Source: Nitrospirota bacterium (lineage in GTDB: Bacteria; Nitrospirota; Thermodesulfovibrionia; Thermodesulfovibrionales; UBA9159). From it: a stretch of 46,375 bases of DNA. The notes beneath the pieces are model-generated. The model had not been told where the DNA came from and made no database searches. It saw only the letters and a program-made list of their open reading frames with translations. The position numbers were made by a program, and so were the translations under genes. Below, piece after piece: positions 1,996-15,593 of this stretch. How positions within the stretch are numbered: position 1 is the stretch's first letter; every line of letters starts with the position of its first letter. The stretch lies in contig JAMCQB010000100.1 of NCBI GenBank assembly GCA_023382175.1, forward strand, positions 1 through 46,375, read 5' to 3'.

Positions 1996-3213
1996 CTATT
2001 CATGAGAATTTAAAACCTTGAAGCCTTCGCGGCTACAAAGGTAGTCGCGCTGGGCCTCCAGGACGTCCTCACCGATCATCTCCTTCACCAATTCCTTAAA
2101 CGTCATTTTCGGTTGCCAGCCGAGTTTCTTTCTCGCCTTTGACGCATCGCCGAGGAGCGTTTCCACTTCAGTGGGCCGGAAATAGCGGGAATCGACCTGG
2201 ACCAGCGTGTCTCCGACACGTAAAGGAGAGGTCGAGGTCAAGGGTGAGGTTGAGGTTGAGCGGGAAGAGGTCGAGGCTAAGGCTGAGGTTAAGGACTTAA
2301 TAATACCTCTTTCTTTTACTCCTTCACCTTTCCATTCCAGTTCTATTCCGATTTCTTTGAAGACTGCTTCGACGAATTCACGGACGGAGTGCTGTTCGCC
2401 TGTGGCGATGACGTAATCGTCCGGTTCCTTCTGCTGAAGCATGAGCCACATGGCCTCGACAAAATCCCTCGCATGCCCCCAGTCCCTCTTCGCGTTCAGA
2501 TTCCCCAGATAGAGCTTTTTCTGCAGTCCAAGCTTTATCCTCGCCGCAGCCCTGGTGATCTTCCTCGTCACAAAGGTCTCGCCTCTGACGGGGGATTCAT
2601 GGTTAAAGAGAATGCCGTTGCTTGCATGAATGCCGTAAGCTTCACGGTAGTTCACCACTATCCAGTACGCGTAGAGCTTTGCCGCTGCGTAGGGACTCCT
2701 GGGATAAAAAGGCGTGGTCTCTTTCTGGGGAATCTCCTGAACTTTCCCATATAACTCTGAGGTGGAGGCCTGATAGAACCTCACCTTCTTTGTCATATTC
2801 AGAATCCTCAATGCCTCCAGAAGCCTCAACGTGCCAAGGGCATCGGCATTGGCAGTATATTCGGGAGTCTCAAAGGAAACCTGCACATGTGATTGGGCCG
2901 CCAGGTTATAGAGCTCGTCGGGCTGTGTCTCCTGGATGATGCGTATGAGGTTCGTTGCATCCGTCAGGTCTCCATAGTGCATGAAGAACCTCGGATGCCC
3001 TTCGTGGGGATCAACATAGAGGTGGTCCACGCGCTGGGTATTGAAGAGAGAAGCGCGGCGTTTTATCCCGTGGACCACGTACCCCTTGTGCAAAAGAAAC
3101 TCCGCCAGATACGCGCCGTCCTGGCCGGTGACGCCGGTAATAAGCGCGACGCGCTTCTTACCGGAATTTTCACTGTTGAATGATGAATGTTGAATGCTCA
3201 CTTTCCTTTTCAT
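1996..3213 (-). CDS. gmd: GDP-mannose 4,6-dehydratase
   Basis: [19 protein letters not shown], Yxxx[27 protein letters not shown]; repeat-derived N-terminus and internal insertion. Confidence 0.95.
2222..2296. repeat. Hexanucleotide array inside gmd
   Basis: gagaggtcgaggtcaagggtgaggttgaggttgagcgggaagaggtcgaggctaaggctgaggttaagg; 6-nt period with GG recurring. Confidence 0.85.
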
Positions 3214-3371
3214 GTTCTCTCCAATATCAGAGCTTTTTCTGCGACGTGGTTTTCACAATCCTGGTCAGCACCGTAAACTCAAAGCTCATTTTCTCGATAA
3301 GATTTTCTTTTACCATAATTCATGATTCATAATTTAGCATTCATAATTGTTTTTATGACTTAATTCAAAAT

Positions 3372-4376
3372 TCAACATTGCCTTTTAAGGAAGTCTTCAT
3401 AGGCCAGTCTCAGCCCTTCCTTCAGCCCCGTTTTTGCTTTCCAGCCCATGGCGTTTATTTTCGTGCAGTCCACCAGTTTCCTCGGCGTGCCGTCCGGCTT
3501 TGAGTGATCAAAAACGATACCACCGTCAAAGCCCACCACATCCCTGACCATGTCGGCCAGTTCCTTTATCGTCACTTCCTCTCCCGAGCCAACATTCACT
3601 GTCTCATTGCCGGAATAGTTTTTCATTAGAAATACACATGCGTCGGCAAGATCGTCCACGTAGAGAAACTCCCTCAGGGGAGTTCCCGTGCCCCAAATAA
3701 CAACAGGTTCAGGTTGAGGCAAAAAAAAGGTCGAGGTCAAGGTTGAGGTTGAGCGATCCTTAGCCTTAACCTCGGCCTCAGCCTGCTCCGAGAGGAGCTT
3801 TGCTTCATGGAACCGTCTTATCAACGCCGGGATCACGTGGGAATTCATGGGATCGTAATTGTCATTTGGCCCATAAAGATTCGTCGGCATGCACGAAATG
3901 AAGTCGGTGCCGTACTGCCGGTTATAGGACTCGCAAAGCTTTATGCCCGCGATCTTTGCTACGGCATAGGGCTCGTTCGTAGGTTCGAGCTTGCCGTCAA
4001 GGAGATACTCCTCCTTCATCGGCTGGGCAGCAAGCTTGGGATAGATGCAGGACGACCCCAAAAAGAGCAGTTTCTTCACGCCTGCCTTAAATGCGCCGTG
4101 GATAATATTGCATTCGATCATCAGATTGGTATAGATAAACTCAGCGCGATAGGTGTTGTTGGCATATATCCCTCCCGCTTTCGCAGCAGCAAGGAAAATA
4201 TATTCAGGCCTTTCTCTCCGGAGACACTCCGTTACCGCCTTCTGGTCAGTCAGGTCCAGTTCTTTTGAGGCAGGGCCGATAATGTTCGTGAATCCTTCTG
4301 CCCTGAGCCGCCGCTCGATGGCAGAGCCCACCATGCCACGACGGCCGGCGATATAGATTTTAGAGTTCAAATGCAT
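3372..4376 (-). CDS. fcl: GDP-L-fucose synthase (GDP-4-keto-6-deoxymannose epimerase/reductase)
   Basis: [60 protein letters not shown] extends to 4466 but [14 protein letters not shown] at 4376 fits the family start. Confidence 0.93.
3725..3793. repeat. Palindromic hexanucleotide array inside fcl (direct arm then inverted arm)
   Basis: aaaaggtcgaggtcaaggttgaggttgagcg atc cttagccttaacctcggcctcagcctgctccgaga. Confidence 0.85.
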
Positions 4377-5958: not shown

Positions 5959-6037
5959 AAAGGTCAAGGTTAAGGTTGAGGTTGAGAATAAGATTTGTGT
6001 TTGCATTGTCTTGACCTTAGCCTCAGCCTAAGCCTTA
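5959..6037. repeat. Palindromic hexanucleotide array, manC-manB intergenic
   Basis: aaggtcaaggttaaggttgaggttgag ... cttgaccttagcctcagcctaagcctta. Confidence 0.85.
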
Positions 6038-7559: not shown

Positions 7560-8591
7560 TTAAACTCCGAAATAAGACTTATACCACTCTACAAAACGCT
7601 GAATACCGGTTTCTATAGGTGTTTCGGGCTTAAAGCCAACATCCTTCATCAGATCGTCCACATCCGCATAGGTGGCGGGGACGTCCCCGGCCTGCATGGG
7701 CAACAGGTTTTTCTCTGCCTTCTTGCCCAGGCAATTTTCCAGCGCTTCAATGAAGTGCATAAGCTCTACAGGATTGTTGTTGCCGATGTTGTAGAGCTTA
7801 TACGGTGCATAGCTTGTGGCAGAATCGGGATCATCACCGGACCAGCGGGGATCAGGCTCCGGGACCCTCTCCATAACTCTCACCACACCTTCCGTGATAT
7901 CGTCGATATACGTGAAGTCCCTCCGCATTTTTCCGTAATTAAAGACATTGATGGGCTTGCCTTCCAGAATGGCCTTCGTAAAGAGGAACAGGGCCATATC
8001 GGGGCGACCCCATGGGCCGTAGACCGTGAAGAACCTGAGTCCGGTGCACGGTATCTTGTAAAGGCTCGCATAGGTGTGCGCCATGAGTTCATTGGCCTTT
8101 TTGGTGGCCGCATAGAGAGAAACAGGATGGTCCACGTTGTGATGGACTGAGAACGGCATCTTTGTATTTGCGCCGTAGACAGAGCTTGAGGAAGCAAAGA
8201 CGAGGTGCTTCACGTCGCTATGCCTGCAGCCTTCCAGGATGTTCAGGAACCCGCTGATGTTGCTGTCGATGTAGGAATAGGGGTTGATGAGAGAATAACG
8301 GACTCCTGCCTGGGCAGCCAGGTTCACCACAATGTCGAACTTCTCTTCCCTGAAGAGCCTTGCAATGCCTTCCCTGTCAGCAAGGTCGAGCCTCACCGGC
8401 TTGAAGTTCCTCTCCATGGTGATCTGTTTGAGACGCTTCAGCTTCAGGTTCACGTCATAATAGTCGTTCAGGTTGTCCAGTCCCACTACTTCATCCCCGC
8501 GTTCAAGAAGCCTCTTGCAGAGATGAAATCCGATGAATCCGGCAGCGCCGGTGACCAGGATTTTGTTCAATGTTCGATGTTCCACATTCAA
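7560..8591 (-). CDS. UDP-glucuronate 4-epimerase / NAD-dependent epimerase
   Basis: [83 protein letters not shown]. Confidence 0.9.
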
Positions 8592-8964: not shown

Positions 8965-9111
8965 AGTTCAACGTTCGATGTTCGAGGTTCAACGTTCAAA
9001 TCAACAGAGACTGTTCAATACTAAAGGCTGTTCAACGTTTTCTATCAGTGGATCTCAGATAGCGTATAAAACCGTTAATCAGGCTGGTCAGCTTGAACTT
9101 GGAACGTTGAA
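8965..9111. repeat. Heptanucleotide array with inverted copies
   Basis: agttcaa cgttcga tgttcga ggttcaa cgttcaa (8965-8999); inverted gcttgaa cttggaa cgttgaa (9091-9111). Confidence 0.75.
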
Positions 9112-9250: not shown

Positions 9251-9292
9251 CGTCAGGCGTAAGGCGTCAGCTGTAAGGTGTGAGGGGTGAGG
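9251..9292. repeat. Heptanucleotide array overlapping the NusG-like 3' end
   Basis: cgtcagg cgtaagg cgtcagc tgtaagg tgtgagg ggtgagg. Confidence 0.85.
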
Positions 9293-9770
9293 CTTTCTTT
9301 ATCGACCTTTGGTCGATCTCGAGGCTGCAGGTGAGGGCATCGAGGAGGATCATGGCCCTTGCCTTCCCCGGCATGTCCCTCTGGAAGATGCCATAGAAGT
9401 CCTTGAAGGGACCTTCCTTAATCAGGACCCTGTCTCCTTTCTTGATGTCCTCGGGGACCGGCGCTACGATTTCGTCCCGCATCCTCTCGCGTATGGCCTG
9501 GATGATCTCAAGGGGGACCGCCAGGGGGTTTTCCTTGCCCACGATGTATTTCACTCCCCGGGTGTATTTGATCATGTGGCAGTGTTTTTCCCTGTCGAAA
9601 CAGGCAAAAATGTAGGAAGGGAAGAGCTGCTCTATGACATCAACATACTTCCTTCTCACCCGCTTCAGCGCCCTGATTTTAGGGGTGAGGGTCTCTATGT
9701 CCGCGTTGTTGAGGAACCGGGCTACGGAATCCTCGCATTTCGGCTTTGTATAAATGGCGTACCAATCCAT
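9267..9770 (-). CDS. NusG/RfaH-like transcription antitermination factor
   Basis: MDWYAIYTKPKCEDSVARFLNNADIETLTPKI...LFPSYIFACFD...VLIKEGPFKDFYGIFQRDMPGKARAMILLDAL (NGN + KOW). Confidence 0.9.
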   Translation of the reverse strand: MDWYAIYTKPKCEDSVARFLNNADIETLTPKIRALKRVRRKYVDVIEQLFPSYIFACFDREKHCHMIKYTRGVKYIVGKENPLAVPLEIIQAIRERMRDEIVAPVPEDIKKGDRVLIKEGPFKDFYGIFQRDMPGKARAMILLDALTCSLEIDQRSIKKASPLTPYS

Positions 9771-9778
9771 ATTAAAAC

Positions 9779-9877
9779 CGTAAGTCGTAAGTCGTCAGTC
9801 GTAAGGTGTGAGGCGTAAGGCGCAAGGCGTCAGTAGTGGACCAGGACCGGAGGCTCACGACTGACGCCTTACGTCTT
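9779..9877. repeat. Palindromic heptanucleotide array upstream of the NusG-like gene
   Basis: Eight exact 7-mers cgtaagt cgtaagt cgtcagt cgtaagg tgtgagg cgtaagg cgcaagg cgtcagt (9779-9834), then inverted ctcacga ctgacgc cttacgt ctt. Confidence 0.9.
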
Positions 9878-10592
9878 CCATAATCCTTCCGGGATTATGG
9901 AAAAAAAGCGCGTCAGCGATTTTCTCGCCGAAGTGTTTCTTCACTTCTTTATAGGCATTTGAGAGGATGGGTGGTCTTCTGTCATGATTGTGGGCGTCGG
10001 AGGCGACCATGTCCGCCAGTCCCCTTTCGATCATGGTGAAGCTTGCCCTCATGATCTCCCTGCCGAACCCTCCGGTGATGCTCATGGCGGTTATCTGGCA
10101 CATGGCGCCCATGTCCCGCAGTCCGCTCAATCCCTTATGGTCATGCATCAGGCGGAGATGCCTCTCGGGATGGGTGATTATGGGCGTGATCCCCTTGTGC
10201 CTCAGATTGAAGATGAGGGAATCAAGATGGGGGGGGACTATAAATTCAGGGAGTTCCATAAGCATGTAGTCCGAACCGTTCAGGGTGGGGATCTCTCCGG
10301 ATTCCATCCGATGTATGAGGTCAGGGATGACCCTCACATCCGCGCCGTAGAAGAGTTCCAGCCCCCCGGGCAGATGTTTTTTCAGATTCCCGACGGAGGA
10401 TATGATCTCTGAGCCCTTATTGGAATAGAGGCCGTCCAGAATGTGGGGAGTGGCAAAGATGCAGGATATGCCGTCCTTCTCTGCCACCTCCAGCATCTTC
10501 AGAGACTCCTCCATGGTGGAAGGACCGTCGTCCATTCCGGGCAGGATATGGCAGTGTATATCAATAAAATTCAATCTTATCTCCTGCAGCAA
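9855..10592 (-). CDS. PHP-family tyrosine-protein phosphatase (CpsB/CapC/YwqE-like)
   Basis: FIDIHCHILPGMDDGPSTMEESLKML, ITHPERH, VASDAHNHDRRPP. Confidence 0.9.
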   Translation of the reverse strand: MLQEIRLNFIDIHCHILPGMDDGPSTMEESLKMLEVAEKDGISCIFATPHILDGLYSNKGSEIISSVGNLKKHLPGGLELFYGADVRVIPDLIHRMESGEIPTLNGSDYMLMELPEFIVPPHLDSLIFNLRHKGITPIITHPERHLRLMHDHKGLSGLRDMGAMCQITAMSITGGFGREIMRASFTMIERGLADMVASDAHNHDRRPPILSNAYKEVKKHFGEKIADALFFHNPGRIMEDVRRQS

Positions 10593-12528
10593 TATGAAAT
10601 CTCTCCGCGACCCCTGCCCTGGTCTCCAGCGCCATCTTCGAAGGAACCGGTGATCTGTATTGTCTGCAGGACTTCGGGTCGGTGCAGGGATTCACATTCC
10701 TGTGAACAGCCGAAACCCTGTTATCGCCGTCAAAGAAGATGATGTCAAAAGGAATCTTCATATTCAGGGCATGGATCCATACATCTTCGCTTTTCTCATT
10801 CATAAAAAGGAGCGCCCTCTCTTCAGAGGGAAGGTCCCGGAACATCAGGCCAAGGGTAGTTTCGAAGGTTGTAGCAGCAACCTCAGCATAAAAACTCCCC
10901 TTCACCCCGCCGGTCCCGCCATCCAGAATCCTCACCTTTCTGAAATCCTTACCCGCAATGTAGAGCTTCACCTCATAGGGTCTGAATTCGTCAATGATAT
11001 TCCCGTCCTTCACCACATATCGTTTGCCGGAGAAATATTCATCGAAATACGTAACATCGCTCCCCATGCCCACCAGCCTGCCCTTCACCTCTTTGTCCAA
11101 CACATTCACCGCCATGATGATCTTCTGCTTCCCTGGGCTGAAGATCTTTGCATGCACAGGTTTTGTTCCGTCAGGAGCAAAGACATAAAGGGAGTCTGAA
11201 AAGAAGCCGGGCGTGCCTGAAGCCTCACCAAGGAAGTAGGGGCTGAGGGCTCCCACTTCCCGCATGAGGCGCTTCACGTCATCCAGATGCGAGCTGTTAA
11301 GTTTGAGGTCATAGTTGCTGTCCTTCACCGTATAGAAAAAGAGTCCCTTTGCGCCGTGGACAATGGCGAGATAACTCAATGCTTTCATCTCGGCATAGGT
11401 GGGTTCCCTGTCCCATCCCTTGCCCTTCCATCCCTGGCCTCCGAATATCTGAATGACGGCCCAGACCTCCCCTGCCCCTGCATGCTTTGCTTCGTCCATG
11501 CTCTTGCTGAGCCATATCACGGGGTTATGGGGAATGGGGTACTGGTCCATGAGGATGACGTCTGCTGCGGCCCTGTACGCCCTCACAAACTCCGGCCTCA
11601 CCATGGCCATGAAGGACGGATGGGTTGAGCCGGAATCCCGTATCTTTTTCACCTTCTTCATTATCTCTTCGGGGGGGACAGACCTGCCTTCAGGTTCGTC
11701 CTCCACATACCAGCCGAGGAGGGAAGAAAAGGCTGAGGCCGAGGCAAAGGCAGAGATCTTTTTTATGGCGGCATCATCATGCACGTTGGCCACGATCTTC
11801 AGGTCCGCCTTTACTGCGGAGTCCATTACTTCATTTAAATTTTTTTCGTTCACCCCGATGACAACACCGTTAAAACCTGCGTCCCTGACAAAGGGGAAAT
11901 CCTGCACCCTTGCGCCGTAGGCCACGAGGGGAAAGAAATCGGGCATGACAGGCTTGAACTTCTCGTCATGAACATTGACCCTCATTTCTTCAGCATCCGC
12001 AATCTTCACCATGGTGGGAGAAGAGAAGTAAAACGTCTCCGGATGATCGTTAATGAACTTAAGTGTTGTCGATTCATCCGGGGCAATGAAGAACAGGCCG
12101 AATTCCTGCCACGCGCCGAAGGTAAGGAGGTTGCTCATCCTTATCCTGGAGCCGAACAGCTCCAGTTCGGGAAAGACGCCGTCAACAAACTCTTCTCTGT
12201 AGACCCTGAAGGAGAGGCGATATCTCTTCCCCTTTTCGAGGCCTTCAAGACTGCACCACCATTGGCCGGACCTGTCCGCCCCTCCCTTTACTCTCAATGC
12301 CCTGAGAGGAGGAGAGCCTGCAGGACCGACGCTGAACTCGCTCTTCCTTACTCCCTCGATGTCGGAGCTTCCGTGCTCCCAGAAGAAAGGGGAAAGCCCA
12401 TCCCCCTCCGGCGTCAGGAACTCCGGATTGGGGACGAGGTTCTCCGCCCCAAAACTGCAGGTTGAGGTACAGGCAAAGGTAGAGATAAAAATAAAGACAC
12501 AGGCACAGGCAGAGACAAAGAGTTTCAC
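10561..12528 (-). CDS. Secreted TIM-barrel (glycoside hydrolase-like) protein with C-terminal DUF192-like domain
   Basis: N-terminal beta-sandwich-like region, barrel motifs GWYVEDEPEGR and VILMDQYPIPHNP, C-terminal TTLGLMFRDLPSEERALLFMNEKSEDVWIHALNMKIPFDIIFFDGDNRV (DUF192 pattern). GTG start. Confidence 0.7.
   Translation of the reverse strand: MKLFVSACACVFIFISTFACTSTCSFGAENLVPNPEFLTPEGDGLSPFFWEHGSSDIEGVRKSEFSVGPAGSPPLRALRVKGGADRSGQWWCSLEGLEKGKRYRLSFRVYREEFVDGVFPELELFGSRIRMSNLLTFGAWQEFGLFFIAPDESTTLKFINDHPETFYFSSPTMVKIADAEEMRVNVHDEKFKPVMPDFFPLVAYGARVQDFPFVRDAGFNGVVIGVNEKNLNEVMDSAVKADLKIVANVHDDAAIKKISAFASASAFSSLLGWYVEDEPEGRSVPPEEIMKKVKKIRDSGSTHPSFMAMVRPEFVRAYRAAADVILMDQYPIPHNPVIWLSKSMDEAKHAGAGEVWAVIQIFGGQGWKGKGWDREPTYAEMKALSYLAIVHGAKGLFFYTVKDSNYDLKLNSSHLDDVKRLMREVGALSPYFLGEASGTPGFFSDSLYVFAPDGTKPVHAKIFSPGKQKIIMAVNVLDKEVKGRLVGMGSDVTYFDEYFSGKRYVVKDGNIIDEFRPYEVKLYIAGKDFRKVRILDGGTGGVKGSFYAEVAATTFETTLGLMFRDLPSEERALLFMNEKSEDVWIHALNMKIPFDIIFFDGDNRVSAVHRNVNPCTDPKSCRQYRSPVPSKMALETRAGVAERFHIAAGDKIEFY
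12457..12521. repeat. Hexanucleotide array encoding the signal-peptide region
   Basis: gcaggttgaggtacaggcaaaggtagagataaaaataaagacacaggcacaggcagagacaaagag. Confidence 0.8.
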
Positions 12529-12890
12529 TTGTTTGATTCCCGCAAGAACAAAATAATTTTATTTAAATCGCCATATATTTCGCACAAAATCGTATCTAAT
12601 TCTTCGGCGTTTTTCTTCTTAAGATACCCAACTCTCATGCCATATTCGACATGGCTTTGGGTTTCGGTCAATGAGCCCCTCGCTACATAGTAAAAATTTA
12701 TTTTATCTAACGTATGATTTCTGCCAAATGCTTCAGCGATGTTTGCCGAAATACTGAGGGCGGACCTCCTTATTTGAGAAGTGAATCCGTAGTCTTCTTT
12801 GCGGGGCAATTTATCCGTAAGTCTGTGTATGGTTTCCGCGACTTCTGTCGCCCTTTGCCAAATCGGCATCTCTTTAAAGCTTCTATACAT
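12525..12890 (-). CDS. Four-helix bundle protein (S23 / 23S rRNA IVS-encoded family)
   Basis: FKEMPIWQRATEVAETIHRLTDKLPRKEDYGFTSQIRRSALSISANIAEAFGR. Confidence 0.9.
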   Translation of the reverse strand: MYRSFKEMPIWQRATEVAETIHRLTDKLPRKEDYGFTSQIRRSALSISANIAEAFGRNHTLDKINFYYVARGSLTETQSHVEYGMRVGYLKKKNAEELDTILCEIYGDLNKIILFLRESNK

Positions 12891-12913: not shown

Positions 12914-13008
12914 TAAAGTCTTTGTTGTTGTCTTTTTCTTTGTATTTGTATTTGTATTTTTCTATGCCTTTACCTATACCTATACCTATACCTATACCTG
13001 TTCTTTAC
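12914..13008. repeat. Hexanucleotide array
   Basis: ...tttgta tttgta ttt... tttacc tatacc tatacc tatacc tatacc tg... Confidence 0.85.
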
Positions 13009-14269
13009 TCATTGCCACTCCCAGCCCGAGGATGAGGGAAAAGAGGATGGCGTTGGAGGGGATATGGAGGTTGAAGTCGGTAATGCTGTGGACCGCCATG
13101 GTGGTTATGGAAGCGAAGAAGGCGGCTCCCAGGTATATGTCCCTGCCCTTCCACTCTGCCTTGACCATGATCCTGAAAAGGGAAAAGAAGAACGCTGCAG
13201 CAATAAGGGTTCCGATGATCCCTGCCTCCAGGAGAAGCTCAAGGTAATCATTATGCGCATGGTCCCAGTAGAGGGTGAGGCCATCCGGCTGATAGACCTT
13301 GAAGATGTGCTGGAATGTTCCCATGCCTGACCCGAAGAGGGGGAAATCCCTGAAGGCTGAAAGGGTCCCCTGCCATGCAGCAAATCTCTGTTCACCGGAC
13401 ACGTCCGTGCGCATGAACCGCTCAACGATGGGGGAGATGCCCAGGGAGAGAAGATACACAGTGAGAACAAGGACAAAGAGGAAGACCGGGATGAGCTTTT
13501 TCTTTGACATGCCCTTTGTGAAACTCACAAAGGAGAAGACGAGGAGGCCGGCAAAGAACGAGATGATGCCGCCCCTGGAGAGGCTGAAGAAAAGGCTTAT
13601 GGCCATCACCACCGCAAAGAAGCCGAACATCAGCCTTCTCTCTGTTTTCCTTGACCTGAAGGCGATGCCCAGGGAAAGGGGGATGATCATGCCCACAAAG
13701 CCTGCAAAATGGTTCCTGTTCACAAAAGGACCGAAAGGGGCGCCGCCGTAAGTGAGCTCCCTGAACCAGTATATCTTTCCGTTCCATGCGGCATGCTGTA
13801 TTATGCCGAATATGGCAAGTATGAATCCGAAAACCGCCAGCGTCCTGATGACTCTGTGTACGCCGTCCTCGCCCCTTATTCCGAAGGCTGCCGCTGAAAA
13901 AACCATGGCATAGATGAGCATACGGGAAAAGTCCATCTCTGTGGCAAAGGGATAGAGGGATATGCTGTGAAAGGCAGGAGCGGCCTTTGGAGAAAGGGTG
14001 ACGATATCCCTGAACTTTTCCTGGACCGCTCCAAGGATCGAAACAGGAAGGGGAAGGAGCTGGAAAAGGGGATAGAGGAGGCACAGCGCCAGGGAGATCA
14101 TGAGGCCTTTTCTCCCGGCAGAGGCGAAATCATCTTTTTCCTCGGTGCAAGCAAAGGAGATGAAGGCCAAGGCAATGAAGATGCTCACCAGGGCCATGGA
14201 CCACGGCTCCACAGCGCCGAAGAGAAGGGCGGAAATGATCACTGCGGCGATGAGGCTACCTTCTCTCAT
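12992..14269 (-). CDS. O-antigen ligase / Wzy-like polymerase
   Basis: Multiple TM segments; FVNRNHFAGFVGMIIPLSLG, LFGSGMGTFQHIF, DHAHNDYLELLLEAGIIG. Confidence 0.88.
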   Translation of the reverse strand: MREGSLIAAVIISALLFGAVEPWSMALVSIFIALAFISFACTEEKDDFASAGRKGLMISLALCLLYPLFQLLPLPVSILGAVQEKFRDIVTLSPKAAPAFHSISLYPFATEMDFSRMLIYAMVFSAAAFGIRGEDGVHRVIRTLAVFGFILAIFGIIQHAAWNGKIYWFRELTYGGAPFGPFVNRNHFAGFVGMIIPLSLGIAFRSRKTERRLMFGFFAVVMAISLFFSLSRGGIISFFAGLLVFSFVSFTKGMSKKKLIPVFLFVLVLTVYLLSLGISPIVERFMRTDVSGEQRFAAWQGTLSAFRDFPLFGSGMGTFQHIFKVYQPDGLTLYWDHAHNDYLELLLEAGIIGTLIAAAFFFSLFRIMVKAEWKGRDIYLGAAFFASITTMAVHSITDFNLHIPSNAILFSLILGLGVAMSKEQV

Positions 14270-15593
14270 AATCCACCTTCAGCACCTTAAGGGCTCCCCC
14301 TTCCCTTGCAAGGATCCACCGTATGTCCCCCTGCACAAGGGCCTCTCCGCCGGCATCCACGGACTTGTTTATGCTGTAGGAAGCGGCCACAATGACGTCA
14401 TCCCCGTTTTTCCTGAACTGGACATTTCTCAGGCTGTACCGGTATCTGCTTTTTTCAAAATTGTGCTTGTACGCCCTCTTGATCTCATCATAGTTCATCC
14501 TGCCGTTTTCCACGGCTGACCTCACATAAAGGGACATGAATTTTTCGATGTCTCCCTCTTCATAGGCCCGGGTATACCGGCTTATGAAAAGGTTCACCCA
14601 TCGTTCGATATTCTCCGGCTCAGCCTTAGCAACGCTCTGCTGTTGCGGCACGGGTGAAGGTCTGAGACCTCCCTCGCCGGCCGTGTCCTGGGGTTTTTCC
14701 TGTTTTTGCTCCTCTCCCTTTACCTTTGCCTTTACCTGGTTTTCTTCCTCTGCCTGTTTCTTTTCCTGTATTTGCTTCTCTTCCTCTGCCTTTACCTCTC
14801 CCTTTGCCTTTTCCCGTGTATTGATCTGTATCTCTATCTTTGCCTGTTTTTGTGCTTTTACCTGTGCCTGGGCCTTTTCTTGTACCTTTTCCTTTACCTG
14901 GGCCTTTTCTTTTACCTCTCCCTTTTCCTGTGCCTTTTCCTTTACCGGCGCCTGCTGCTGACCGTCCGCCTTATCGGTCACCCCTGCATGGTGGACGTGC
15001 CTTTGCTGCCTGTTTTCGAGGAATATGACCAGCAATATGACACCGGCAATGACCACGCAGGAGGGAATAATGAGCTTCGACAGAATGCTTCTCATCTTCG
15101 GTGACCCGAGGACGTGCTCCTCCGGAGGAGGCGTGCGAAATTTTCTGATCTCAGGCCGCAGGTGATGCCCCTCCGCTCTCCTCCTGTGGTATTCCCTTCT
15201 CTTTTCCGGGTTCTTCAATACGCTGTACGCCTCGTTGATCCTGGCGGCGCACGACGCTGCCTCTTCATCCCTGTTCCTGTCAGGATGGTACAGGAGCATC
15301 AGTTCCTTCCAGCGTTTATGGATATGGGATTCTGACGCGTTATGGGGCAGGGCAAGGGTGAGGTAATGGTCATTTTCCCTGTTGAAATGGAGCCTATAGA
15401 GGATTTTCGTGATCTGGCCGGAGATATACTCCCTGGAGATGCCCATGGACGACAGAAACTTCCTTGCCCCCTCAGTATCGTTCAGGATATCGATGAAGGC
15501 ATCGGAATGCCGAACGCCGTGGATGCAGAATCGCTCCCACGAAATGCCCGCCCGCACCTCGCCGATGAATTCCAGGGCCTCCTGATGGCTCAC
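14256..15593 (-). CDS. J-domain protein with TM segment, low-complexity linker and NTF2-like C-terminal domain
   Basis: WKELMLLYHPDRNRDEEAASCAARINEAYSVLKNPEKRREYH (HPD), TM VVIAGVILLVIF, K/E/Q/V-rich linker, C-terminal RYTRAYEEGDIEKFMSLY. Confidence 0.8.
   Translation of the reverse strand: MSHQEALEFIGEVRAGISWERFCIHGVRHSDAFIDILNDTEGARKFLSSMGISREYISGQITKILYRLHFNRENDHYLTLALPHNASESHIHKRWKELMLLYHPDRNRDEEAASCAARINEAYSVLKNPEKRREYHRRRAEGHHLRPEIRKFRTPPPEEHVLGSPKMRSILSKLIIPSCVVIAGVILLVIFLENRQQRHVHHAGVTDKADGQQQAPVKEKAQEKGEVKEKAQVKEKVQEKAQAQVKAQKQAKIEIQINTREKAKGEVKAEEEKQIQEKKQAEEENQVKAKVKGEEQKQEKPQDTAGEGGLRPSPVPQQQSVAKAEPENIERWVNLFISRYTRAYEEGDIEKFMSLYVRSAVENGRMNYDEIKRAYKHNFEKSRYRYSLRNVQFRKNGDDVIVAASYSINKSVDAGGEALVQGDIRWILAREGGALKVLKVDYERR
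14695..14952. repeat. Long degenerate hexanucleotide array encoding the J-protein linker
   Basis: tttacc tttgcc tttacc tggttt tcttcc tctgcc ... ttttcc tgtgcc ttttcc tttacc; 6-nt phase kept for about 250 nt. Confidence 0.85.

Follow-up and report, generated by a model that had tools for sequence, protein, structure and literature searches.

The window (the whole 46,375-nucleotide stretch of DNA analyzed here) raises the question of how an array of short tandem repeats came to encode the core of a predicted signal peptide. A sequence-only reading had described the N terminus of the protein encoded at 10561-12528 (the target) as the direct product of a hexamer array and had proposed that this array was recruited as an export signal. 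On the plus strand the array is a degenerate hexamer with the consensus AGGYAN, composed of the units AGGTTG, AGGTAC, AGGCAA, AGGTAG, AGATAA, AAATAA, AGACAC, AGGCAC, AGGCAG, and AGACAA; read on the minus strand it gives LFVSACACVFIFISTFACTSTC, which makes up nearly all of the N-terminal hydrophobic core of the target. The start codon of the target is GTG at position 12528, and the frame reads (M/V)KLFVSACACVFIFISTFACTSTCSFGAENLVPN. By inspection of the sequence, no in-frame ATG, GTG, or TTG was found between the array and the mature domain, so the start cannot be shifted past the array. A start 3' of the array, the objection named in the sequence-only reading, is therefore ruled out, and with the GTG at 12528 as the start the array is coding if the target is translated.

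Identity at a lag of 6 bases in the array-coding DNA was 0.68, compared with 0.36 in codon shuffles, none of 5,000 of which reached 0.68, and the array-coded N terminus is as originally described in both sequence and position. Ranked by how repetitive their first 26 codons are, the target came first of the 482 ORFs in the sampled portion of the genome (approximately 0.57 Mb, from an assembly that is 86.8% complete with 2.6% contamination). A scan for arrays with 6- to 9-bp units identified 12 in 570 kb, five of them inside the window, and none in locally shuffled sequence. The second hexamer patch reported within the same gene is also real; it has some four GCCTNN units, falls in a loop that is longer or shorter depending on the ortholog, is short, and lies outside the cassette described below.

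A putative Sec signal of the target would comprise a lysine at position 2 ahead of the core, the hydrophobic core itself, and SFG/AE ahead of NLVPNP. Each of the three close orthologs has a hydrophobic segment at its N terminus, immediately ahead of the conserved NL(V/I)PNP motif, and in the target the array takes the place of this segment; its best 12-residue hydropathy is 2.80, compared with 2.79 to 3.47 in the orthologs. The proposal of recruitment therefore appears largely right in that the array supplies a segment that is hydrophobic in the orthologs, and it is incomplete as to where the array came from, as the array is one arm of an inverted pair.

A complete S23 gene ends where the target begins; it matches PF05635 ("23S rRNA-intervening sequence protein") with 112 bits (cut-off, 33.8) and TIGR02436 ("four helix bundle protein") with 109.7 bits (cut-off, 24). 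The match to this family is full length and above the curated cut-offs in both cases, and relatives with solved structures are 2gsc (71 bits) and 2rld. The S23 stop codon overlaps the target start codon (GTGA). Beyond the S23 gene lies a second hexamer array, of the same unit family, which begins within the stop codon of an O-antigen-ligase gene and aligns with the first as an inverted pair over 60 bp without gaps at 72% identity; the array that codes for the predicted signal-peptide core is therefore one half of an inverted repeat, its 3' arm, and the cassette formed by the arms and the S23 gene sits between the ligase gene and the target (Table 1). No mobility enzyme was recognized among the nine window proteins scanned, and the S23 protein had no PADLOC match.

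Table 1. Features of the S23 cassette and its neighbors in the window
Feature	Coordinates	Strand	Description
CpsB/CapC phosphatase gene	9855..10592	-	3' of target; wzy - target - cpsB order conserved in relatives
Target gene	10561..12528	-	655 aa; array-coded N terminus, central domain without Pfam match, C-terminal DUF192
Second short GCCTNN hexamer patch	11721..11757	-	Codes AFASASAFSS in a variable-length loop
3' arm of S23 cassette	12459..12518	+	Hexamer array; codes predicted signal-peptide core of target on minus strand
S23 / 23S_rRNA_IVP four-helix-bundle gene	12525..12890	-	PF05635, TIGR02436, PDB 2gsc; lies between the arms
5' arm of cassette	12928..12999	-	AGGTAT-type hexamer array in inverted orientation to 3' arm (12928-12987 aligned)
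Wzy_C O-antigen-ligase gene	12992..14269	-	5' of S23; last codons (...KEQV stop) enter the 5' arm

Comparison with relatives revealed both occupied and empty states of this site (G000 denotes this genome, other G numbers its relatives' genomes, L numbers loci, and C numbers contigs). In G001 and G060, wzy abuts the target with neither an S23 gene nor an array between them, and the signal peptide of the target is an ordinary one. No significant periodicity was seen in the corresponding segments of the orthologs in L002 and L003, so that the comparison of orthologs suggested in the sequence-only reading gave nonrepeat signal peptides. In G005, the ligase and the target are fused via a short repetitive stretch and the first S23 codons (MMKNFRFQDLEIWKEALQ), followed by an ordinary hydrophobic segment, and the truncated S23 start is likely a deletion remnant. 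The NL(V/I)PNP mature start is retained in each of these cases. A second cassette in this genome, on contig C65, separates a MOSC-domain gene from a mog-like gene and has 30-bp arms with a unit unlike that of the window (AGTGTCAGTGATTAGTGTCAGTGTCAG). Nothing occupies this junction in G001, G002, and G004, and in G003 an S23-less inverted array hairpin is found there. Thus, occupied and empty states, as sought for a mobile element, were found among relatives at both the wzy-target and the MOSC-mog junctions.

The empty-site comparison implies that the native signal peptide of the target was displaced by the cassette. It is very probable that an S23 cassette sits at the ligase-target junction with its 5' arm starting in the ligase stop codon and its 3' arm replacing the start and signal core of the target. 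The cassette would have landed at the start of the target gene, whose native start and signal-peptide core would have been taken over by the 3' arm. Translation of the target would then begin at the GTG overlapping the S23 stop, probably via translational coupling; the pyrimidine-rich sense strand of the 3' arm would encode a run of hydrophobic residues, after which come a cleavage region that could be used (SFG/AE) and the mature NLVPNP domain. Selection may have retained an arm sequence that was still able to export the target protein.

To examine the generality of this anatomy, 113 nonredundant S23 loci were compiled. This genome and its family contributed 12 and the order 28; the other 73 are named loci spread over many phyla, among them Bacteroidota, Nitrospirae, Rhizobiales, Planctomycetes, Omnitrophota, and Parcubacteria, the named sample being ranked by likeness to a hand-written S23 family consensus and biased to typical S23 proteins. 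Chryseobacterium balustinum and Epilithonimonas caeni are among the S23-bearing species covered. The score of each locus came from a local alignment in which the flank upstream of the S23 gene was compared with the reverse-complemented downstream flank. The median inverted score was 35, compared with 16 in 1,880 control intervals from the same loci (Mann-Whitney p about 1e-56, a value that assumes independent loci, a few of which are near relatives); 88% of the 113 S23 loci exceeded the control 95th percentile and 69% the 99th, leaving about 31% of S23 genes below the latter. As a gene-level control, 136 neighboring ORFs were scored in the same way, and all eight with a score of at least 30 were themselves S23 genes. 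After removal of the 12 S23-like ORFs, the remaining 124 neighbors reached a maximum of 28, which was exceeded by 76 of the 113 S23 genes. Chance flank similarity was rejected by the interval, cross-locus, and gene-level controls. Nine S23 loci had direct arrays only; direct flank similarity was not enriched overall across the S23 loci (p = 0.35), and direct arrays were rejected as a general rule.

The arms are tandem arrays. Among the 73 strong arms that are periodic, the best lag was 7 in 55 and 8 in 14, and the remaining arms had a lag of 6 or 9; the unit is thus 6 to 9 bp, mostly 7 bp, and usually locus specific. In G005 and G006 the arms matched only their own partner (of the loci compared, L054 and L057 are one cassette), so the unit is mostly a property of the locus, and a single repeat family shared by all cassettes of a genome was rejected. 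Related genera can share a unit at seemingly orthologous cassettes, as seen with a NuoD-like gene downstream in Phyllobacterium, Mesorhizobium, and Pseudaminobacter. The L054/L057 cassette, on contig C32 of G005, seemingly lies between CRISPR-like repeats (TGAGAAGAGAAACCTTGATGAATAAAGGAT), and a figure of newly found associations in a CRISPR survey includes 23S rRNA IVP (PMC10910872). No 23S rRNA motifs were found in the 113 S23 loci, and an Rfam scan of 20 loci returned two tRNAs only; the idea that the arms are remnants of rRNA intervening sequences was rejected, as no 23S was found at S23 loci. A search of the freely accessible literature identified no reports linking S23 genes with inverted short-tandem arrays.

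At least four other cassettes have a 3' arm that forms the N terminus of a protein, a predicted signal peptide in two cases, and the same is seen at two sites of this genome that lack S23. Part of the predicted signal peptide MNFLKKRNHILLTTYYLLFFFVTCSLAAEP of L109 (Omnitrophota) is encoded by a heptamer arm, and a nonamer arm in L157, from the order relative G039, codes for MKLFKLKLFYLFHLLPLLTLFPLLFVACAPV, which resembles a lipoprotein signal. The signal peptide of L218, the G082 ortholog of the L157 gene, retains a nine-base pattern (codon-shuffle p = 0.0008) with no S23 gene immediately 5' of the gene; those of L219 and L220 are ordinary. At L079 the arm became the N terminus of a GalE-like protein, and at L053 in G006 it became that of FabD, with the whole S23 gene still at the site. 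Further repeat-encoded N termini, for which the sequence-only reading suggested a search, were found at two S23-less sites in the sampled part of this genome. One is fabD itself (L187, 1700-1865 of contig C11), with an octamer-array N terminus; between its arrays lies a stretch that can be aligned to the 3' end of S23 in the orthologous cassette of G006 (approximately 26 identities in 34 columns, 0 of 2,000 shuffles). The other (L196, 10229-10735 of contig C20) is a TPR-like lipoprotein, FLLRVTSCALLFNFLLLAGCS, with the lipobox LAGC, whose predicted signal peptide is encoded by an arm of an S23-less inverted heptamer array and is the second array-coded one in this genome.

As other arms became the N termini of the cytoplasmic proteins GalE and FabD, signal-peptide coding appears to be a by-product of where an arm lands and not specific to the window array. 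Open sense frames of 3' arms were hydrophobic (mean hydropathy above 1.2) in 15% of cases, compared with 8% for random segments and 4% for 5' arms, and their share of charged residues was 17%, compared with 27% and 31%, respectively; the 5' arms are purine rich in the sense strand (mean, 0.64). An open, in-frame 3' arm would therefore be biased toward hydrophobic coding.

Several further arrays were observed in the window and in this genome. At 5960-6035 of the window, an inverted hexamer array hairpin (AAGGTTAAGGTTGAGG ... CCTCAGCCTAAGCCT) with no S23 in its loop lies between two genes. A 250-bp degenerate hexamer array at 14695-14946 encodes a KEKAQVKEKAQ-type linker in a DnaJ-domain protein two genes 5' of S23. 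Heptamer arrays at 3160-3213 and 3314-3400 surround the start of the 1996-3213 gene, the nearer one encoding an N-terminal extension ahead of the apparent native sugar-dehydratase start. A NusG-like gene (arrays at 9251-9293 and 9779-9830) and a MarR/HTH gene (8564-8582 and 8966-8999) are flanked by heptamer arrays that are direct, not inverted, with the units CGTAAGG and GTTCAAC, respectively. On contig C86 (L038, 5687-5793), about 18 near-perfect TTTACC units lie between nuoI and nuoJ, directly 5' of nuoJ, so that AGGTAA units on the coding strand abut the nuoJ start codon. On contig C74 (L039, 5279-5345), an inverted hexamer array with a short, S23-less loop lies between convergent genes and resembles a terminator.

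Because AGGYAN also occurs elsewhere in the contig and the genome, the window arm could reflect a local hexamer tendency, and it might have grown by plain microsatellite slippage within a signal peptide of the usual kind, its resemblance to the upstream array being due to chance or to that tendency. AGGYAN/GCCTNN hexamers at 14695-14946, 11721-11757, 5960-6035, and 2228-2294 and on contigs C74 and C86 are consistent with such an origin. However, the array lies exactly at the S23 boundary and is inverted relative to the array on the opposite side, as in most S23 loci; the cassette-free orthologs lack the hexamer; and arms built from other units at other S23 genes likewise turn into N termini. 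We therefore regard slippage as very unlikely. Scarcely less doubtful is the view that the target is not exported and that the array is just an N-terminal addition that the protein tolerates, as FabD and GalE do. Arms do serve as the N termini of cytoplasmic enzymes in L053, L079, and L187, but all three close orthologs of the target have N-terminal hydrophobic segments, and the array equals these in hydropathy and has a lysine ahead of the core.

Two other alternatives accept the cassette and concern what the arms do or which part came first. The arms may work in RNA, as a stem around the S23 ORF in a polycistronic mRNA that is perhaps cut by RNase III; the Coxiella 23S intervening sequence, in which an S23 ORF lies in a 28-bp terminal inverted-repeat stem cut by this enzyme, provides a precedent (PMC4990558). 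The cassette RNA folds with its arms paired at a minimum free energy of -140.4 kcal/mol (z, -3.76; none of 100 shuffles as stable). Selection for pairing in the sense RNA should leave an excess of G-U-compatible arm mismatches, yet these numbered 67, compared with 76 A-C mismatches (p = 0.50); since this wobble asymmetry gave no signal, selection on a sense RNA stem is unsupported, and S23 genes with direct arrays cannot form such a stem. A role in RNA is thus possible while leaning toward the unlikely. The order of events may also have been the reverse, with array hairpins arising first and S23 genes inserting in their loops, just as rRNA intervening sequences are located in helix loops. S23-less inverted arrays are present at gene junctions, one of them at the MOSC-mog junction that S23 occupies in this genome. 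At least one S23-less site is instead a deletion remnant (fabD in this genome, whose interarm sequence matches the G006 S23 3' end), and no array hairpin is present at the wzy-target junction of the S23-less relatives G001 and G060. As a general account, we consider this order rather unlikely; as S23-less array hairpins exist (window 5960-6035, L039, L173, and L196), arrays do not depend on the presence of S23 and may come first in some cases.

For the preferred reading, insertion of an S23 cassette, the arms look like mirror copies produced or kept at the DNA level. In L010, for example, the order of unit variants is common to both arms, with 0.93 identity in register compared with 0.58 at a one-unit shift. 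Such a shared order suggests inverted copying or conversion and not independent slippage; in the window the contrast is weak, the in-register identity of 0.72 being barely above the unit-shifted 0.67. More broadly, we tentatively propose, with somewhat less than even confidence, that non-rRNA S23 genes are widespread mobile elements whose inverted arrays are made anew at each insertion, with a unit that differs from locus to locus but is shared by both sides, and that repeatedly rewrite the ends of neighboring genes, donating N termini and even working signal peptides to them.

The function of S23 proteins is not settled, and descriptions of the rRNA intervening sequences that carry S23 treat them as selfish elements whose origin is unclear. 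Most of the S23 genes examined, across many phyla, share an anatomy of inverted short-tandem arrays; these arrays have locus-specific units and offer a way to find S23 cassettes and their remnants. They also point to a testable link between a small S23 protein and the generation of tandem arrays, which is otherwise ascribed to polymerase slippage. Finally, they suggest a route from noncoding repeat DNA to protein starts, signal peptides among them, whose intermediate stages are visible as the full cassette, the S23 remnant, and the array only.

Among known systems, simple-sequence repeat contingency loci carry short tandem repeats at or within the start of genes for surface and secreted proteins. 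The window array differs from these in its degenerate units, drawn from a 6- to 9-bp range, in its inverted arms around another gene, and in showing no sign of frame switching. The intergenic heptamer direct repeats TAACTGA of Beggiatoaceae, for which mobility is suspected, are similar in placing short tandem units near start codons, with some entering ORF ends (PMC4679880). However, they consist of one unit genome-wide, almost always in direct orientation, and the paper describing them contains no S23 or four-helix term (PMC4679880). Avd of diversity-generating retroelements belongs to a homologous four-helix family (PMC10053308). The window S23 protein is a distant homologue, scoring 24.8 bits against NF033474, far under the Avd cut-off of 80, and no reverse transcriptase was found among the nine window proteins scanned; it does not belong to Avd. 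The closest system is the 23S rRNA intervening sequence with an S23 ORF, of the Coxiella and Leptospira type, which has a long terminal inverted repeat and a sporadic distribution and has been called a selfish element (PMC4990558). The window cassette likewise has its S23 ORF inside terminal inverted repeats, with arms of 60 bp, and a sporadic distribution. It lies not in a 23S rRNA gene but between Wzy_C and the target, and the S23 cassettes described here differ in occupying protein-gene junctions and in having short-tandem arrays with a locus-varying unit as their repeats. Non-rRNA S23 cassettes are, by this analogy, best seen as relatives of the rRNA intervening sequences, sharing an S23 ORF set within a long terminal inverted repeat.
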